Source: Candidatus Blastococcus massiliensis AP3
GTDB lineage: Bacteria; Actinomycetota; Actinomycetes; Mycobacteriales; Geodermatophilaceae
Direction: 5' to 3'
DNA length: 64,000 bases
NCBI RefSeq assembly: GCF_000582785.1
Contig: NZ_HG931175.1
Coordinates: forward strand, 587,791-651,790
Shown: piece after piece, positions 7,228-43,028 of the stretch
How the letters are laid out: the number at the start of each line of letters is the position of its first letter
Position numbering within the stretch: the stretch's first letter is position 1
Program-made: the position numbers and the translations under genes
Notes under the pieces: model-generated
The model's input: only the letters and a program-made list of their open reading frames with translations
Database searches by the model: none
What the model was told of the DNA's origin: nothing

Positions 7228-7228
<1 letters not shown>

Positions 7229-7983
7229 TGGATCTGGGCCTGGGCGGTCGCGGCTACCTGCTCACCGGCGCGAGCCGGGGGCTGGGGTTCGCGACCGCCC
7301 GCGCCCTGGTCGACGACGGCGCCCGGGTGCTGATCAGCTCCCGGTCCGCCGAGTCGGTCGACGCCGCCGTCTCCTCGCTGGGGTCGGCGGCCTCCGGCGT
7401 CCCCGCCGACCTGGCCGACCCCGACGCGGCCGAGCGGCTCGTCACCGAGGCGCGCGAGCGGCTCGGGACCGTCGACGGCGTGCTCGTCTCGGTCGGCGGG
7501 CCCGCGCCCGGGACCGTGCTGACGACGCCGGAGGACGCCTGGCGGGCCGGCGTGGAGAGCGTGCTGCTCGGTCCGCTGCGGCTGGTCCGGGCACTCGTCC
7601 CGCACCTGGACGAGGGCGCGGTCATCGCCTTCGTGCTCTCCATCTCGGTGCGGCAGCCCATCGGTCACCTGGCGATCTCCAACGGCCTGCGCCCCGGGCT
7701 GGCGATGACCGCGAAGGCGCTCGCCGACGAGCTGGGACCGAAGGGCATCCGGGTCCTCGGCCTGCTCCCGGGAACGATCGCCACCGACCGGATCGCCGAG
7801 ATCGAGGCGGCCTCCGGCGACGCCGCGGCGGCGCGCGCCCGCACCGAGGCGGGCATCCCGCTGCGCAGGGTCGGCCGCCCGGAGGAGTTCGGCCGGGTCG
7901 CCGCGTTCGCCCTCTCCCCCGCCGCCTCCTACCTGACCGGGATGATGATCGCCGTCGACGGCGGCATGACCCGCGCCCTGTGA
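7228..7983 (+). CDS. SDR-family protein lacking the Tyr-Lys catalytic pair
   Basis: This 251-residue Rossmann-fold protein has TGASRGLG near the N-terminus for NAD(P) binding and a C-terminal VDGGM. Where active SDRs have Tyr-x-x-x-Lys, this one reads HLAISNGLRPGL, so Tyr aligns with Leu and Lys with Asn. I recall a subfamily annotated as 3-oxoacyl-ACP-reductase-like with this defect, so it is probably a real variant and not a decayed gene. Either the chemistry differs or it is a binding protein. The ATG at 7228 overlaps the acnA stop (TGATG), so translation is coupled to aconitase. The TGA is followed after 7 nt by repeat element A. Confidence 0.88.
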
Positions 7984-7990
7984 AAAAGGA

Positions 7991-8041
7991 CCCCCTCGCC
8001 CCCCACCACTCGCAGGCTCGCGGCGGGACACTGCGAGGGGG
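7991..8041 (+). repeat. Dispersed hairpin element, copy A
   Basis: Arms CCCCCTCGC (7991-7999) and GCGAGGGGG (8033-8041) pair perfectly around a 33-nt loop that contains CACTCGCAGGCTCGCG. It starts 7 nt (AAAAGGA) after the SDR stop codon. Three other copies in the window share the loop but not the arm sequence. The right arm supplies GAGGGGG, 7 nt before the GTG start of the next gene, so folding would hide that ribosome site. Read on the opposite strand, the hairpin is followed by TCCTTTTT. Confidence 0.8.
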
Positions 8042-8048
8042 CCGACCG

Positions 8049-11855: not shown

Positions 11856-12584
11856 ATGAGCGACCCCACCGGTGCGGTGCCCGAGGCCGCGACCACGCCC
11901 GACCCCGGCACGACGCCGTCGGGCGGCCGGCGCTGGAACCGCACGGTGTCCGGCATCGTGACGGCCGCCCTGTCGCTGGCGCTGGGCTTCGGCCTCGTCG
12001 TGCAGATCCGCAGCACCGGTGAGGCCGAGGAGCTCGCCGGCGCCACCGAGGACGACCTGGTGCGCATCCTCGACGACCTCGACACCCGCGAGGAGCAGCT
12101 CCGCGGGCAGCTCGCCGAGCGGGAACGGGCCGTCGAGGAGCTCAGCGACGGCCGTTCCCAGTCGGGTTCCGCCCTCGCCGAGGCGCAGCGCCGCGCCGAC
12201 GCCATCGGCGTCCTCACCGGCACCCTGCCGGCCCGCGGGCCGGGCCTGCGGCTGATGATCCAGGACCCGGAGGGCGCGGTCACCACGGCCGTGCTGCTCG
12301 ACGCGATCCAGGAGCTGCGCGGGGCCGGCGCCGAGGCGATCCAGGTGGACGGCGTCCGCGTGGTCGTCTCCAGCTACGTCGGCGGCACGCCCGGCGAGCT
12401 GACCGTGGACGGACAGGAGCTGAGCGCGCCCTACGAGATCCTGGCGATCGGCCCGCCGTCCGACCTGGAGGTGGCGCTCAACGTCTCCGGTGGCGTCGTC
12501 GCCGACGTCGCACGCGCCGGAGGGTCCGCCTCGGTCAGCCAGGTCGACGAGGTCGTGATCGACGCGCTGGTCCCCGGGAGCTAG
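11856..12584 (+). CDS. DUF881-family membrane-anchored protein
   Basis: This protein of about 242 residues has a short cytoplasmic N-terminus, one membrane helix (ISGIVTAALSLALGFGLV region, about 35-52), a coiled coil (about 65-115) and a DUF881 domain (VLTGTLPARGPGLRLMIQDPEG onwards). Family members cluster with cell-division genes in other Actinobacteria; here the gene stands alone. The ATG at 11856 is preferred over an in-frame GTG at 11835. A TACTGT hexamer sits about 10 nt upstream, which could be a leaderless -10. Its TAG stop shares the CTAG at 12581-12584 with the converging rhodanese gene. Confidence 0.85.
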   Translation: MSDPTGAVPEAATTPDPGTTPSGGRRWNRTVSGIVTAALSLALGFGLVVQIRSTGEAEELAGATEDDLVRILDDLDTREEQLRGQLAERERAVEELSDGRSQSGSALAEAQRRADAIGVLTGTLPARGPGLRLMIQDPEGAVTTAVLLDAIQELRGAGAEAIQVDGVRVVVSSYVGGTPGELTVDGQELSAPYEILAIGPPSDLEVALNVSGGVVADVARAGGSASVSQVDEVVIDALVPGS

Positions 12585-12590
12585 CGCTCC
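12577..12590. terminator. Bidirectional hairpin over two converging stop codons
   Basis: GGAGC (12577-12581) and GCTCC (12586-12590) flank TAGC. The palindromic CTAG provides the TAG stop of both the DUF881 gene (plus) and the rhodanese fragment (minus). The short stem could act in both directions; a T-run is absent. Confidence 0.35.
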
Positions 12591-12970
12591 GGGCCGGTCT
12601 CGACCGGGCGGTCGTGATCGGCCGACCACTGCGACCACGAGCCCGGCCACAACGCGGCGTCGATCCCCGCGACCGCCAGCGCCGCCACCTCGTGCGCCGC
12701 GGTGACGCCCGAGCCGCAGTAGACGCCCACCGTCGCGCCGGGCTCCGCGCCGAGCGCCGCGAACCGCCGCGCGAGCTCGTCGGGGTCGCGGAAGGTGCGC
12801 TCCGGCGTCAGGTTCTCCGTCGTCGGGGCGCTCACCGCCCCGGGCACGTGTCCGGCACGGGGATCGATCGGCTCGACCCCGCCGCGGTACCGCTCTCCCG
12901 CCCGCGCGTCGAGCAGCACACCACCGGACGTGGGCAGCGCGGCCGCATCGTCGGCATCGAGCACCGGCAT
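12581..12970 (-). CDS. Rhodanese-like sulfurtransferase, C-terminal catalytic domain fragment
   Basis: This is the second rhodanese domain of an SseA-type thiosulfate/3-mercaptopyruvate sulfurtransferase, 129 residues from ATG 12970. The active-site loop CGSGVTAAHEV holds the sulfur-carrying Cys, and RAGERYRGGVEP, GHVPGAVSAP and LWPGSWSQW are typical of the family. Just upstream in the same frame PGDVVLTGGG reads as the normal interdomain linker, so the ATG is probably an internal Met of a once longer gene. GGAGGGGGG directly before it could allow independent initiation. The N-terminal domain lies at 13119-13421 in another frame. Repeat element B and about 60 bp of unrelated sequence lie between. 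A free active domain or a dead remnant are both possible. Confidence 0.75.
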   Translation of the reverse strand: MPVLDADDAAALPTSGGVLLDARAGERYRGGVEPIDPRAGHVPGAVSAPTTENLTPERTFRDPDELARRFAALGAEPGATVGVYCGSGVTAAHEVAALAVAGIDAALWPGSWSQWSADHDRPVETGPER

Positions 12971-13060
12971 CCCCCCTCCGGTCAGGACGACGTCACCCGG
13001 GGACCCCTTCGACCTCGCCGACCTCGGCCGCCCTACCGGCCCCCGCCCCAGCGCCCATGG

Positions 13061-13111
13061 CCCCGCTGCAGGGACCCGCCACGAGCGTGCGAGTGGTGGG
13101 GGGCAGCGGGG
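13061..13111 (-). repeat. Dispersed hairpin element, copy B (inside a split rhodanese gene)
   Basis: In gene orientation, arm CCCCGCTGC pairs with GCAGCGGGG (13103-13111 with 13061-13069) around a 33-nt loop that differs from copy A at about five positions. A 7-nt AGAAGGA spacer separates it from the TGA at 13119-13121 that ends the N-terminal rhodanese domain. Together with 13001-13060 it occupies the place of roughly 45 codons expected between the two domains. Confidence 0.8.
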
Positions 13112-13118
13112 TCCTTCT

Positions 13119-13421
13119 TCAGGCGCGGGCCGCGGCCAGTCCCCCGGAGGCGTCGTAGGCGACGACCGGCACGTCCGCCCGCACGCCCCAGCGGCGCGCG
13201 GCTCCTTGCAGTCGCTGCAACGACGGCAACGGATGCCGCCCCTCCGCGGCCGACGGCGGCCCGGCGAGCTCGGTCTCGAGGTCGACGTACACCGCGCCCG
13301 GCAGGTGGCCGGCCAGGTAGTGCTCGCGACCGTGCGGATCGCCCAGCGCCCAGCGGACGTCGAGCAACGTGACCGGTCCGCCGGCGGCCAGCAGCTGCCC
13401 TGCGGACAGCAGCACGCTCAC
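13119..13421 (-). CDS. Rhodanese-like N-terminal domain, truncated by repeat element B
   Basis: This 100-residue fragment is the non-catalytic first domain of a two-domain SseA-like sulfurtransferase. It shows LLDVRWALGDPHGREHYLAGHLPGAVYVDLETEL and VPVVAYDASGGLAAARA, then a TGA. In intact family members that last motif is followed by a Trp-rich helix and the interdomain linker; here the element starts 7 nt after the stop. The GTG start at 13421 overlaps the TGA of the upstream SgcJ-like gene (GTGA). The piece has no catalytic Cys and is probably a relic of a disrupted gene. Confidence 0.72.
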   Translation of the reverse strand: MSVLLSAGQLLAAGGPVTLLDVRWALGDPHGREHYLAGHLPGAVYVDLETELAGPPSAAEGRHPLPSLQRLQGAARRWGVRADVPVVAYDASGGLAAARA

Positions 13422-23404: not shown

Positions 23405-23441
23405 CCGGAACCGCCGAGGTGACGTGCTGGAACGGCCTCGG

Positions 23442-23490
23442 CCCCTTGCCGGGTCCCAACGCGAGCCTGCGAGCGGTGGGGGGCAAGGGG
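23442..23490 (-). repeat. Dispersed hairpin element, copy C
   Basis: In gene orientation, arm CCCCTTGC(C) pairs with (G)GCAAGGGG around a loop containing CGCTCGCAGGCTCGCG. It begins 6 nt (GAAACT) after the sufT stop codon at 23497-23499. It lies between the converging GNAT and sufT genes. For transcripts from the GNAT side the hairpin is followed by AGTTTCT, a weak T-rich tail. Confidence 0.75.
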
Positions 23491-23496
23491 AGTTTC

Positions 23497-23907
23497 TCAG
23501 ACGCGGAAGCCGAGGGCGCGCAGCTGCTCGCGGCCGTCGTCGGTGATCTTGTCCGGGCCCCACGGCGGCATCCAGACCCAGTTGATCCGGATGTCGTCGA
23601 CGAGGCCGGGGCCGGGGCCGCCGGTCAGGGCCTGACGGGCCTGGTCCTCGATGACGTCGGTCAGCGGGCAGGCCGCCGAGGTCAGCGTCATGTCGATGAT
23701 CGCGACGTTGCTGTCGTCGTCGACGTCGAGGCCGTAGACCAGGCCGAGGTCGACGACGTTGACGCCGAGCTCCGGGTCGACGACGTCGCGCATGGCCTCT
23801 TCGAGGTCCTCGAGGAGCGCGGTCTTGTAGGCCGGCAGGTCGCCAGGCGCTCCGTCGGTCGCGGGCGTCGCGTTCGAGGTGTCGGCGTTCTCGGTGATCT
23901 CGCTCAT
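23497..23907 (-). CDS. sufT: SufT-like DUF59/MIP18 Fe-S assembly factor
   Basis: This 136-residue protein of the MIP18/PaaD/SufT family helps mature Fe-S proteins. After a variable N-terminus (about 30 residues) come LEEAMRDVVDPELGVNVVDLGLVYGL, IIDMTLTSAACPLTDVI with the conserved Cys, and INWVWMPPWGPDKITDDGREQL. The ATG at 23907 has GGAGG 6 nt upstream and overlaps the sufU stop (ATGA). It is the last gene of the suf operon and is followed at once by repeat element C. Confidence 0.93.
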   Translation of the reverse strand: MSEITENADTSNATPATDGAPGDLPAYKTALLEDLEEAMRDVVDPELGVNVVDLGLVYGLDVDDDSNVAIIDMTLTSAACPLTDVIEDQARQALTGGPGPGLVDDIRINWVWMPPWGPDKITDDGREQLRALGFRV

Positions 23908-42601: not shown

Positions 42602-42733
42602 GAGCGCTCCCTGATCTCCGGTACCGACGTGTGGCAGATCACCACAGCGGCCGAAGTCTAGAGCCTGGAGAGCCGATCCCCGGTCACGATTTCGCTCCGG
42701 TCGGCGGAGGCCGAAGGTGACGGGATGGCACGG

Positions 42734-42784
42734 CCCTCCTGCAGGGGCCCGCCGCGAGCCTGCGAGTGGTGGGGGGCAGGAGGG
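42734..42784 (-). repeat. Dispersed hairpin element, copy D
   Basis: In gene orientation, arms CCCTCCTGC and GCAGGAGGG pair perfectly around a 33-nt loop identical in its core to copy A (CACTCGCAGGCTCGCG). It starts 7 nt (CAAAGGA) after the secG stop at 42792-42794 and separates secG from rbpA. Confidence 0.8.
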
Positions 42785-42791
42785 TCCTTTG

Positions 42792-43028
42792 TCAGTCGAC
42801 CTTGATGAGGATGCCGAGCGCGACGATGCAGACCGTCCAGATCAGCGCGGTGAAGACGGTCAGCCGGTTCAAGTTCTTCTCGACCACGGACGAGCCGGAC
42901 AGCGAGGCGGAGGCCGCGCCGCCGAACATGGAGGACAGGCCGCCGCCCTTGCCGCGGTGCAGCAGGATGAGCACCACGAGCAGCGCGCTGGACAGCACCA
43001 GCAGCACGTTCAGGACGACCTCGATCAT
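42792..43028 (-). CDS. secG: Preprotein translocase subunit SecG
   Basis: This 78-residue membrane protein assists SecYE in protein export. Two hydrophobic helices (VVLNVLLVLSSALLVVLILLH and VFTALIWTVCIVALGILI) flank GKGGGLSSMFGGA, the conserved loop of SecG. ATG 43028. It is normally next to tpiA; here a peptide-binding protein gene lies between. Element D follows. Confidence 0.95.
   Translation of the reverse strand: MIEVVLNVLLVLSSALLVVLILLHRGKGGGLSSMFGGAASASLSGSSVVEKNLNRLTVFTALIWTVCIVALGILIKVD

Follow-up and report, generated by a model that had tools for sequence, protein, structure and literature searches.

Hairpin repeats behind genes are usually read as terminators or as REP debris. 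In E. coli, REP hairpins act as decay barriers and affect translation when they lie near a stop codon. Short repeats at stop codons within operons are known in actinobacteria from the mycobacterial interspersed repetitive units (MIRU); these are tandem units with small ORFs and, by description alone, contrast with a covarying hairpin that has a constant tip. According to passages of PMC3733652, REP, REPIN and BIME sequences are high-copy imperfect hairpins, mostly found downstream of genes, between unidirectional or convergent ORFs; many REPs are plausibly transcribed, and GTAG REP ends often supply a TAG stop codon. That text contains no word beginning with 'actinobacter'. RNase R with PNPase targets REP-containing mRNAs, as stated in part of PMC12320835.

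The hairpins described here come from a window of 64,000 nucleotides (C3:587791-651790 of the source genome, 3.87 Mb in 4 contigs). They share with REP a high copy number (at least 111 own-genome matches) and the location behind genes, since 75 of the 82 own copies with an exact GGACC/GGGCC anchor (82 of 94 could be anchored) are preceded by a stop codon at a distance of 0-8 nt. They differ from REP in length (56 nt versus 20-40 bp), in a strong sense bias, in a near-constant tip carried by a freely covarying stem, and in a distribution nearly restricted to Geodermatophilaceae. The GTAG and CGTC tags typical of the REP superfamilies are absent from the foot of the own copies, and the Y1 transposase domain PF01797 was found in none of 36 family genomes, compared with 3 of 24 others of the order and 5 of 14 control genomes. 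As neither of these two defining features was found, the element is REP-like but not a REP; a RAYT-driven REP was rejected on the lack of PF01797 in the 36 family genomes. The best reading is a REP-like, but stop-anchored and sense-biased, intercistronic RNA hairpin.

Intrinsic terminators have in common with the element a GC-rich hairpin 3' of genes, but the latter has no U-tract, a near-constant tip, a 4-nt stop spacing and positions between operon partners. Rfam families are likewise structured RNAs with covariation; the window has no Rfam match at gathering thresholds, and copy 1 with its flanks has none at E<=1. A literature search on repeats, hairpins and terminators in Geodermatophilus, Blastococcus and Modestobacter, with subscription papers largely outside it, gave nothing evident on this family; the same holds for the passages on three actinobacterial names in the stem-loop family survey PMC2267715. 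Thus the remark of a first-pass annotation that no named family matches agrees with Rfam and with the literature searched on Geodermatophilaceae repeats and terminators and on REP/RAYT in Actinobacteria.

That annotation had described four hairpins with near-identical loops and different, complementary arms; when the coordinates were re-read, all four were present where it had placed them (Table 1). The 21-base core matches each copy with no mismatch; in 100 shuffles the mean was 0.08 matches at up to three mismatches, and four matches were reached in none. The P1 arms of copies 1 to 4 are, in order, CCCCCTCGC/GCGAGGGGG, CCCCGCTGC/GCAGCGGGG, CCCCTTGC(C)/(G)GCAAGGGG and CCCTCCTGC/GCAGGAGGG.

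Table 1. Hairpin copies in the window with their host genes, and copies lying between operon partners elsewhere (given by locus).
Feature	Position or locus	Strand	Remarks
SDR-type oxidoreductase gene	7228-7983	+	Pfam adh_short_C2
TGA of SDR-type oxidoreductase gene	7981..7983	+	copy 1 begins 4 nt on
Copy 1 hairpin	7988..8043	+	closing CC 8042-8043; 21-base core 8000-8020 (+)
Copy 1 GG	7988-7989	+	
Copy 1 bulged A	7990	+	
Copy 1 P1	7991-7999 / 8033-8041	+	
Copy 1 internal loop	8000-8001 / 8028-8032	+	
Copy 1 P2	8002-8009 / 8020-8027	+	
Copy 1 tip loop (TCGCAGGCTC)	8010-8019	+	
Copy 2 hairpin, within disrupted rhodanese (sulfurtransferase) gene	13059..13114	-	TGA 13119-13121; 21-base core 13082-13102 (-)
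Disrupted sulfurtransferase gene, whole extent	12581..13421	-	
Rhodanese N-half, end ..GGLAAARA-TGA	13122-13421	-	start codon assumed; Pfam Rhodanese
Rhodanese C-half (GDVVLTGGGMPVLDAD..), past copy 2	12997 to stop 12581	-	different frame
Copy 3 hairpin, behind iron-sulfur assembly (SufT-like, PF01883) gene	23440..23492	-	stop 23497-23499; 21-base core 23462-23482 (-)
Copy 4 hairpin, behind secG	42732..42787	-	secG 42792-43028, TGA 42792-42794; Pfam SecG; 21-base core 42755-42775 (-)
rpoA-[element]-rplQ	L146		NCBIfam/Pfam both sides
mdh-[element]-icd	L150		NCBIfam/Pfam both sides
sucC-[element]-sucD	L157		NCBIfam/Pfam both sides
trpC-[element]-trpB	L159		NCBIfam/Pfam both sides
ilvN-[element]-ilvC	L169		NCBIfam/Pfam both sides
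gyrB-[element]-gyrA	L170		NCBIfam/Pfam both sides
NAPRTase-[element]-nicotinamidase	L180		nicotinamidase match below its curated cut-off
gnd-[element]-recF	L223		NCBIfam/Pfam both sides, gnd Pfam-confirmed; copy scores 37.6 bits

The element is about 56 bases long and reads, from 5' to 3', stop codon, usually 0-5 nt, GG(A)CC, P1, CC, P2, tip, P2', NCCCT, P1', GGCC. P1 has 8-9 bp plus a bulged A and GG/CC; in the window copies it is extended at the foot as GG-(bulged A)-..CC, except in copy 3, which is without the GG(A) foot. The 33-nt loop of the earlier description is not open, because it contains a second helix, P2 (CCCACCRC/GYGGCGGG, with one A.C mismatch), capped by TCGCASGCTC, as RNAalifold predicted with no structure supplied. 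On 17 own copies aligned without structure the same program predicted two helices of 7 pairs each, and their fold energies range from -28.6 to -45.8 kcal/mol in 76-base windows.

The tip, TCGC-NN-GCTC (UCGC-NN-GCUC as RNA), is near-invariant: among 94 distinct own-genome rows its TCGC and GCTC positions are 94-100% conserved, and G36, C37 and GCTC reach 98-100% versus P1 positions that go down to 44-54%, figures obtained with core and model searches biased toward conserved tips and with a model built from copies partly picked for long P1. The bases between TCGC and GCTC vary, with longer forms such as TCGCTCCGCTC in 5 of the 94 rows, which would be compatible with a GC/GC mini-stem. In a subclass B, P1 is CCCCGTCC/GGACGGGG and P2 is, for example, CTCACCCC/GGGGCGAG. 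The foot consensus in own-genome copies is (A)GAA-GGACC and GGCC-G. After GGCC, 14 of 85 own copies (L151, L166, L193 and others) have a tail starting with GTTCCAG, in some cases GTTCCAGCACGTCACC-like, which may be a sign of younger copies or of a longer original element; at this frequency it was rejected as a constant part of the element.

Covariation was first evaluated on the 17 own copies, which had been chosen by the core alone, with stems not selected and an alignment made without structure. They score 0.208 for covariation, whereas 500 shuffles average 0.093 +/- 0.014 without once attaining that value and slid structures give at most 0.109; this supports the claim of the first-pass annotation that folding matters. 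The signal is less marked in two coarser measures, with 7 pairs changed on both sides versus 4.3 (13 of 500 shuffles reach it) and 15 further pair types versus 12.8 (61 of 500). In the 94 distinct own rows found with the covariance model, an alignment fitted to that model, the score is 0.374 against 0.110 +/- 0.007, slid structures stay at or below 0.098, and 13 of 18 pairs in P1 and P2 are changed on both sides (shuffles 11.0; 22 of 500).

Perfect 9/9 P1 pairing occurs in 12 of 17 own copies versus 11% after swapping arms between copies, and in 60 of 119 copies from other genomes versus 6%; pairing of at least 8/9 is found in 16/17 and 97/119, versus 45% and 41% after the swap. Since real arms pair far above swapped arms, core matches as a rule have complementary flanks; a general pattern of loop matches lacking such flanks, named beforehand as the contrary outcome, did not occur, yet 22 of the 119 copies in other genomes are below 8/9 pairs. 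The covarying stems could in part stem from hairpin-templated repair without selection.

The exact 20-base core is present 17 times in the own genome, and a reversed control pattern is absent. The covariance model R1 (65 positions, 18 pairs) was built from 60 sequences out of 117 with long P1 stems; in the own genome it gave at least 111 matches at E<=0.01, of which 102 exceed 40 bits. Because scoring covered 150 of 7,899 candidates, further weak copies may exist. At one mismatch or less the core was found in 44 of 57 same-family genomes, with 1 to 87 matches per genome (38 in the own genome), and, outside the family, in 1 of 40 genomes from the order; among the 13 family genomes with no match, G025 and G054 have at least 5 and at least 16 model matches, respectively. 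Model-based counts per genome are lower bounds and not copy numbers: within the order, 150 genomes gave at least one match in 20 cases (18 from the same family, plus G109 with 2 and G118 with 1), and a phylum-wide set of 198 genomes gave matches in 2, the own genome included. The core matches comprise 116 stretches, of which the 36 numbered L105-L140 entered the comparisons without a source name. Among the matches listed, which cover the other 80 stretches, are Geodermatophilus, Blastococcus, Modestobacter, Trujillonella, Goekera and two further Geodermatophilaceae, together with MAGs labelled Modestobacter or Frankiales; a taxonomy lookup places Trujillonella and Goekera in Geodermatophilaceae, a lineage of soil and rock bacteria known for desiccation and radiation tolerance. 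The family is thus almost confined to Geodermatophilaceae. The one or two model matches each in G109 and G118 (same order) and in G196 (same class) possibly reflect horizontal transfer or contamination. Phage or plasmid origin was rejected, as the exact 25-base core is absent from viral contigs and copy 1 has no match in plasmids.

The own copies are spread over three contigs and form no arrays. This distribution bears on the idea that the element serves DNA binding or recombination, for example as an architectural protein site, in attC-like recombination or as an uptake signal; the bulged A, the asymmetric internal loop and the post-stop position resemble integron attC, but the scattering of the copies, and a sense bias and stop spacing that suggest constraint at the RNA level, make it very improbable. 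Close inverted pairs are rare, with one pair within 300 nt among 90 own-genome loci of about 3 kb each; this sole case, L142 (G000, C1:425298+ / 425494-, gap 132 nt), lies apparently behind two convergent gene ends.

Placement behind stop codons was analysed in 307 distinct contexts from many genomes. In 247 of them a stop codon lies within 12 nt after at least 30 open codons (TGA 183, TAG 43, TAA 21); the element begins 0-5 nt after the stop in 233 contexts, 126 of which have a gap of exactly 4 nt, and little conservation is seen upstream of the stop codon in the anchored own copies. For the window, the distance of 6-7 nt given by the first-pass annotation becomes a stop-to-GG spacer of 4 nt in copies 1, 2 and 4. 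A strict coding test, requiring 100 coding-like codons, was passed by 197 of 307 contexts in sense and 24 in antisense, against 30 of 6,140 random sites, so that the antisense rate too is above random; 86 contexts passed neither. The placement is therefore strongly sense-biased. Among gene ends close to an element, 16 of 68 in the own genome and 24 of 108 in other genomes have it on the opposite strand.

Several copies lie between operon partners (Table 1), cases hand-picked from 50 tandem neighbours and not a random sample; that these gene pairs form operons here is inferred from gene order. Elsewhere the downstream gene alone was identified (rbfA in L147, scpA in L171, hisG in L185). The next start codon follows 11-61 nt past the modelled element, an approximate distance given that the gene callers are simple GC-frame heuristics. 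In L223 (G000:C2, near 1059.8 kb) gnd is flanked by two elements, the second between gnd and recF.

These positions make a strong terminator implausible there. The element could be seen as an intrinsic terminator family with an unusual conserved loop, acting in sense or on antisense or converging transcription, because a stable GC-rich hairpin lies directly 3' of genes and a few copies have A-rich spacers. However, the longest T-run near the 3' foot is 2 or less in 96 of 98 own matches (94 distinct) and an A-run of 5 precedes the hairpin in 2 of the 98; the opposite-strand tract TCCTTTTT, on which the first-pass annotation had based termination of antisense or converging transcription, belongs to copy 1 only. 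Nor is there clear enrichment between convergent genes, as, counting both strands, the convergent arrangement accounts for 27 of 68 gene ends with an element versus 39 of 118 without in the own genome, and for 49 of 108 versus 171 of 440 in other genomes; the downstream gene is tandem or convergent in roughly the usual proportion. On these run counts, gene arrangements and operon positions, the antisense or converging terminator was rejected, and a terminator of any orientation is highly unlikely.

When a ribosome sits at a stop codon, its cover extends some 10 nt past the A site, and in E. coli the efficiency of a terminator fell from about 90% to less than 10% when the stop codon was moved to 5 bp upstream, a repression abolished by uncoupling translation (passages of PMC4824070). 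A terminator this near a stop codon was thus repressed by ribosomes in E. coli, which also speaks against reading the element as a terminator. The sense bias, the stop spacing, the operon positions and the conserved tip favour action at the RNA level, and since the P1 foot lies inside the ribosome-covered stretch, the simplest proposal is folding gated by translation. With moderate confidence, we consider the elements a lineage-specific dispersed family of structured intercistronic or 3'-UTR RNA hairpins, translation-gated, read at the tip and copied onto stop codons. Acting as RNA, the hairpin would have its P1 foot covered as long as a ribosome occupies the stop codon, and would close after release or when upstream translation is lacking. 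Once closed, it would separate the cistrons, blocking 3'-to-5' decay into the upstream one and acting as an obstacle to sliding or re-initiating ribosomes and perhaps to RNA polymerase, with tuned expression of the neighbouring genes as the outcome. A putative trans factor, protein or RNA, would recognise the constant tip and the internal loop. Spreading would occur by a copying process that needs no host Y1 (IS200/RAYT-type) transposase, and copies landing directly behind a stop codon would be retained. Family, structure and placement are direct results; the effect on expression and the tip binder are what we infer from them.

A wider, more speculative and rather unlikely extension is a genome-wide post-stop-codon RNA regulon, in which folding reports ribosome termination, the tip is read by a putative lineage-specific factor and the network grows by hairpin copying; if true, it would comprise dozens to about 100 genes in element-rich genomes, here including rpoA, gyrB, sucC, mdh and secG. 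One family joins mobility, post-stop placement, compensatory stem evolution at orthologous sites, a near-invariant tip and core-operon positions, and it offers a clean test of the idea that selfish hairpins can turn into widespread elements of RNA control; the constant tip is a handle for fishing out its binding partner.

Retention is seen where the same gene carries a copy at different loci, in 78 copy pairs from 24 gene groups (pairs that are not independent; 28 are from SufT and 15 from secG, and 2 have less than 70% identity and are maybe paralogs). In L068, L137 and L160, with protein ends 78-81% identical, the tips are conserved and the 5' arms of the stems are CCCCACTGC, CCTCGCTGC and CCCCGCTGC; each is complemented by its 3' arm, apart from an A.C mismatch in L068. 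The complementary stems of L019 and L061 (72.5% identity) differ, although both copies share CCCCTAC, a rare internal loop. One and the same position, the stop of malate dehydrogenase (L060, L081, L150), carries either subclass A or subclass B. Some stem changes at orthologous sites may derive from recombinational replacement between copies. Since stems stay complementary at orthologous sites despite sequence change, old copies are not simply decaying.

Copies are also gained. The rhodanese gene broken by copy 2 is uninterrupted (..AAARAWWLLRW..) in the 13 displayed orthologs (L234-L245 and L248, out of L234-L249). For the 61 nt behind copy 2, the own genome holds no complete donor sequence, just a 27-base match inside another gene-like stretch; compared with the native rhodanese stretch these 61 nt score 39-48.5, with shuffled means of 34-38, and never above the shuffled maximum. 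With a similarity this weak, copy 2 may have arisen by insertion or by replacement with copied DNA. Copies nested in older copies are clearest in L035, L038 and L043, and are probably present in L099 and L134.

Occupancy of orthologous sites is patchy: the element lies behind 7 of 30 SufT-like loci and, by the model, 7 of 30 secG loci, with a further, decayed secG copy in L281 recognised on visual inspection; together with the family genomes empty of the core, this means that no copy looks indispensable. In L303, L298 and L309 the element is found between the SufT-like stop codon and another terminator-like hairpin shared with element-free relatives, a further point against a terminator role of the element itself. 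Such gains could be explained by a selfish, REP-like mobile hairpin, moved as folded single-stranded DNA by some enzyme that recognises stem complementarity and the constant tip, with stop-codon sites as harmless insertion spots. The disrupted rhodanese gene, the nesting, the patchy occupancy, the insertion ahead of the shared hairpin and the tandem partial copies described below are all in its favour; however, the lack of PF01797 in the family genomes searched, a sense bias unexpected for harmless sites, the spacing of exactly 4 nt in about half of the contexts and the complementary stems at orthologous sites leave this explanation possible but less likely than RNA-level hairpins copied onto stop codons. 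Of the two options left by the first-pass annotation, a functional loop or one spread by copying, both are favoured, as stems turn over around a tip that hardly varies, and the copies include newly gained and nested ones as well as ones retained at orthologous sites.

Other arrangements were observed as well; those in L311, L314, L320, L297, L303 and L305 are behind or near the SufT-like gene. In L311 (G002), whose hairpin reads CCTCGCTGC-CCCCCA-GCAGCGAGG, and in L314 (G014), where it is short, a P1-like stem is present and P2 is absent, a state that would result either from P2 deletion or from an ancestral simple hairpin. In L320 the element is on the opposite strand. In L297, L303 and L305 a long inverted repeat, located around TCTGGGGTGTTC..GAACACCCCAGA and free of long T-runs, is conserved; it is possibly the real terminator behind this gene. 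Finally, L066, L087, L080 and L034 contain tandem partial duplications, in which P2 and P1' are repeated and the 5' arm is not, as if half-elements had been copied by hairpin-induced slippage.
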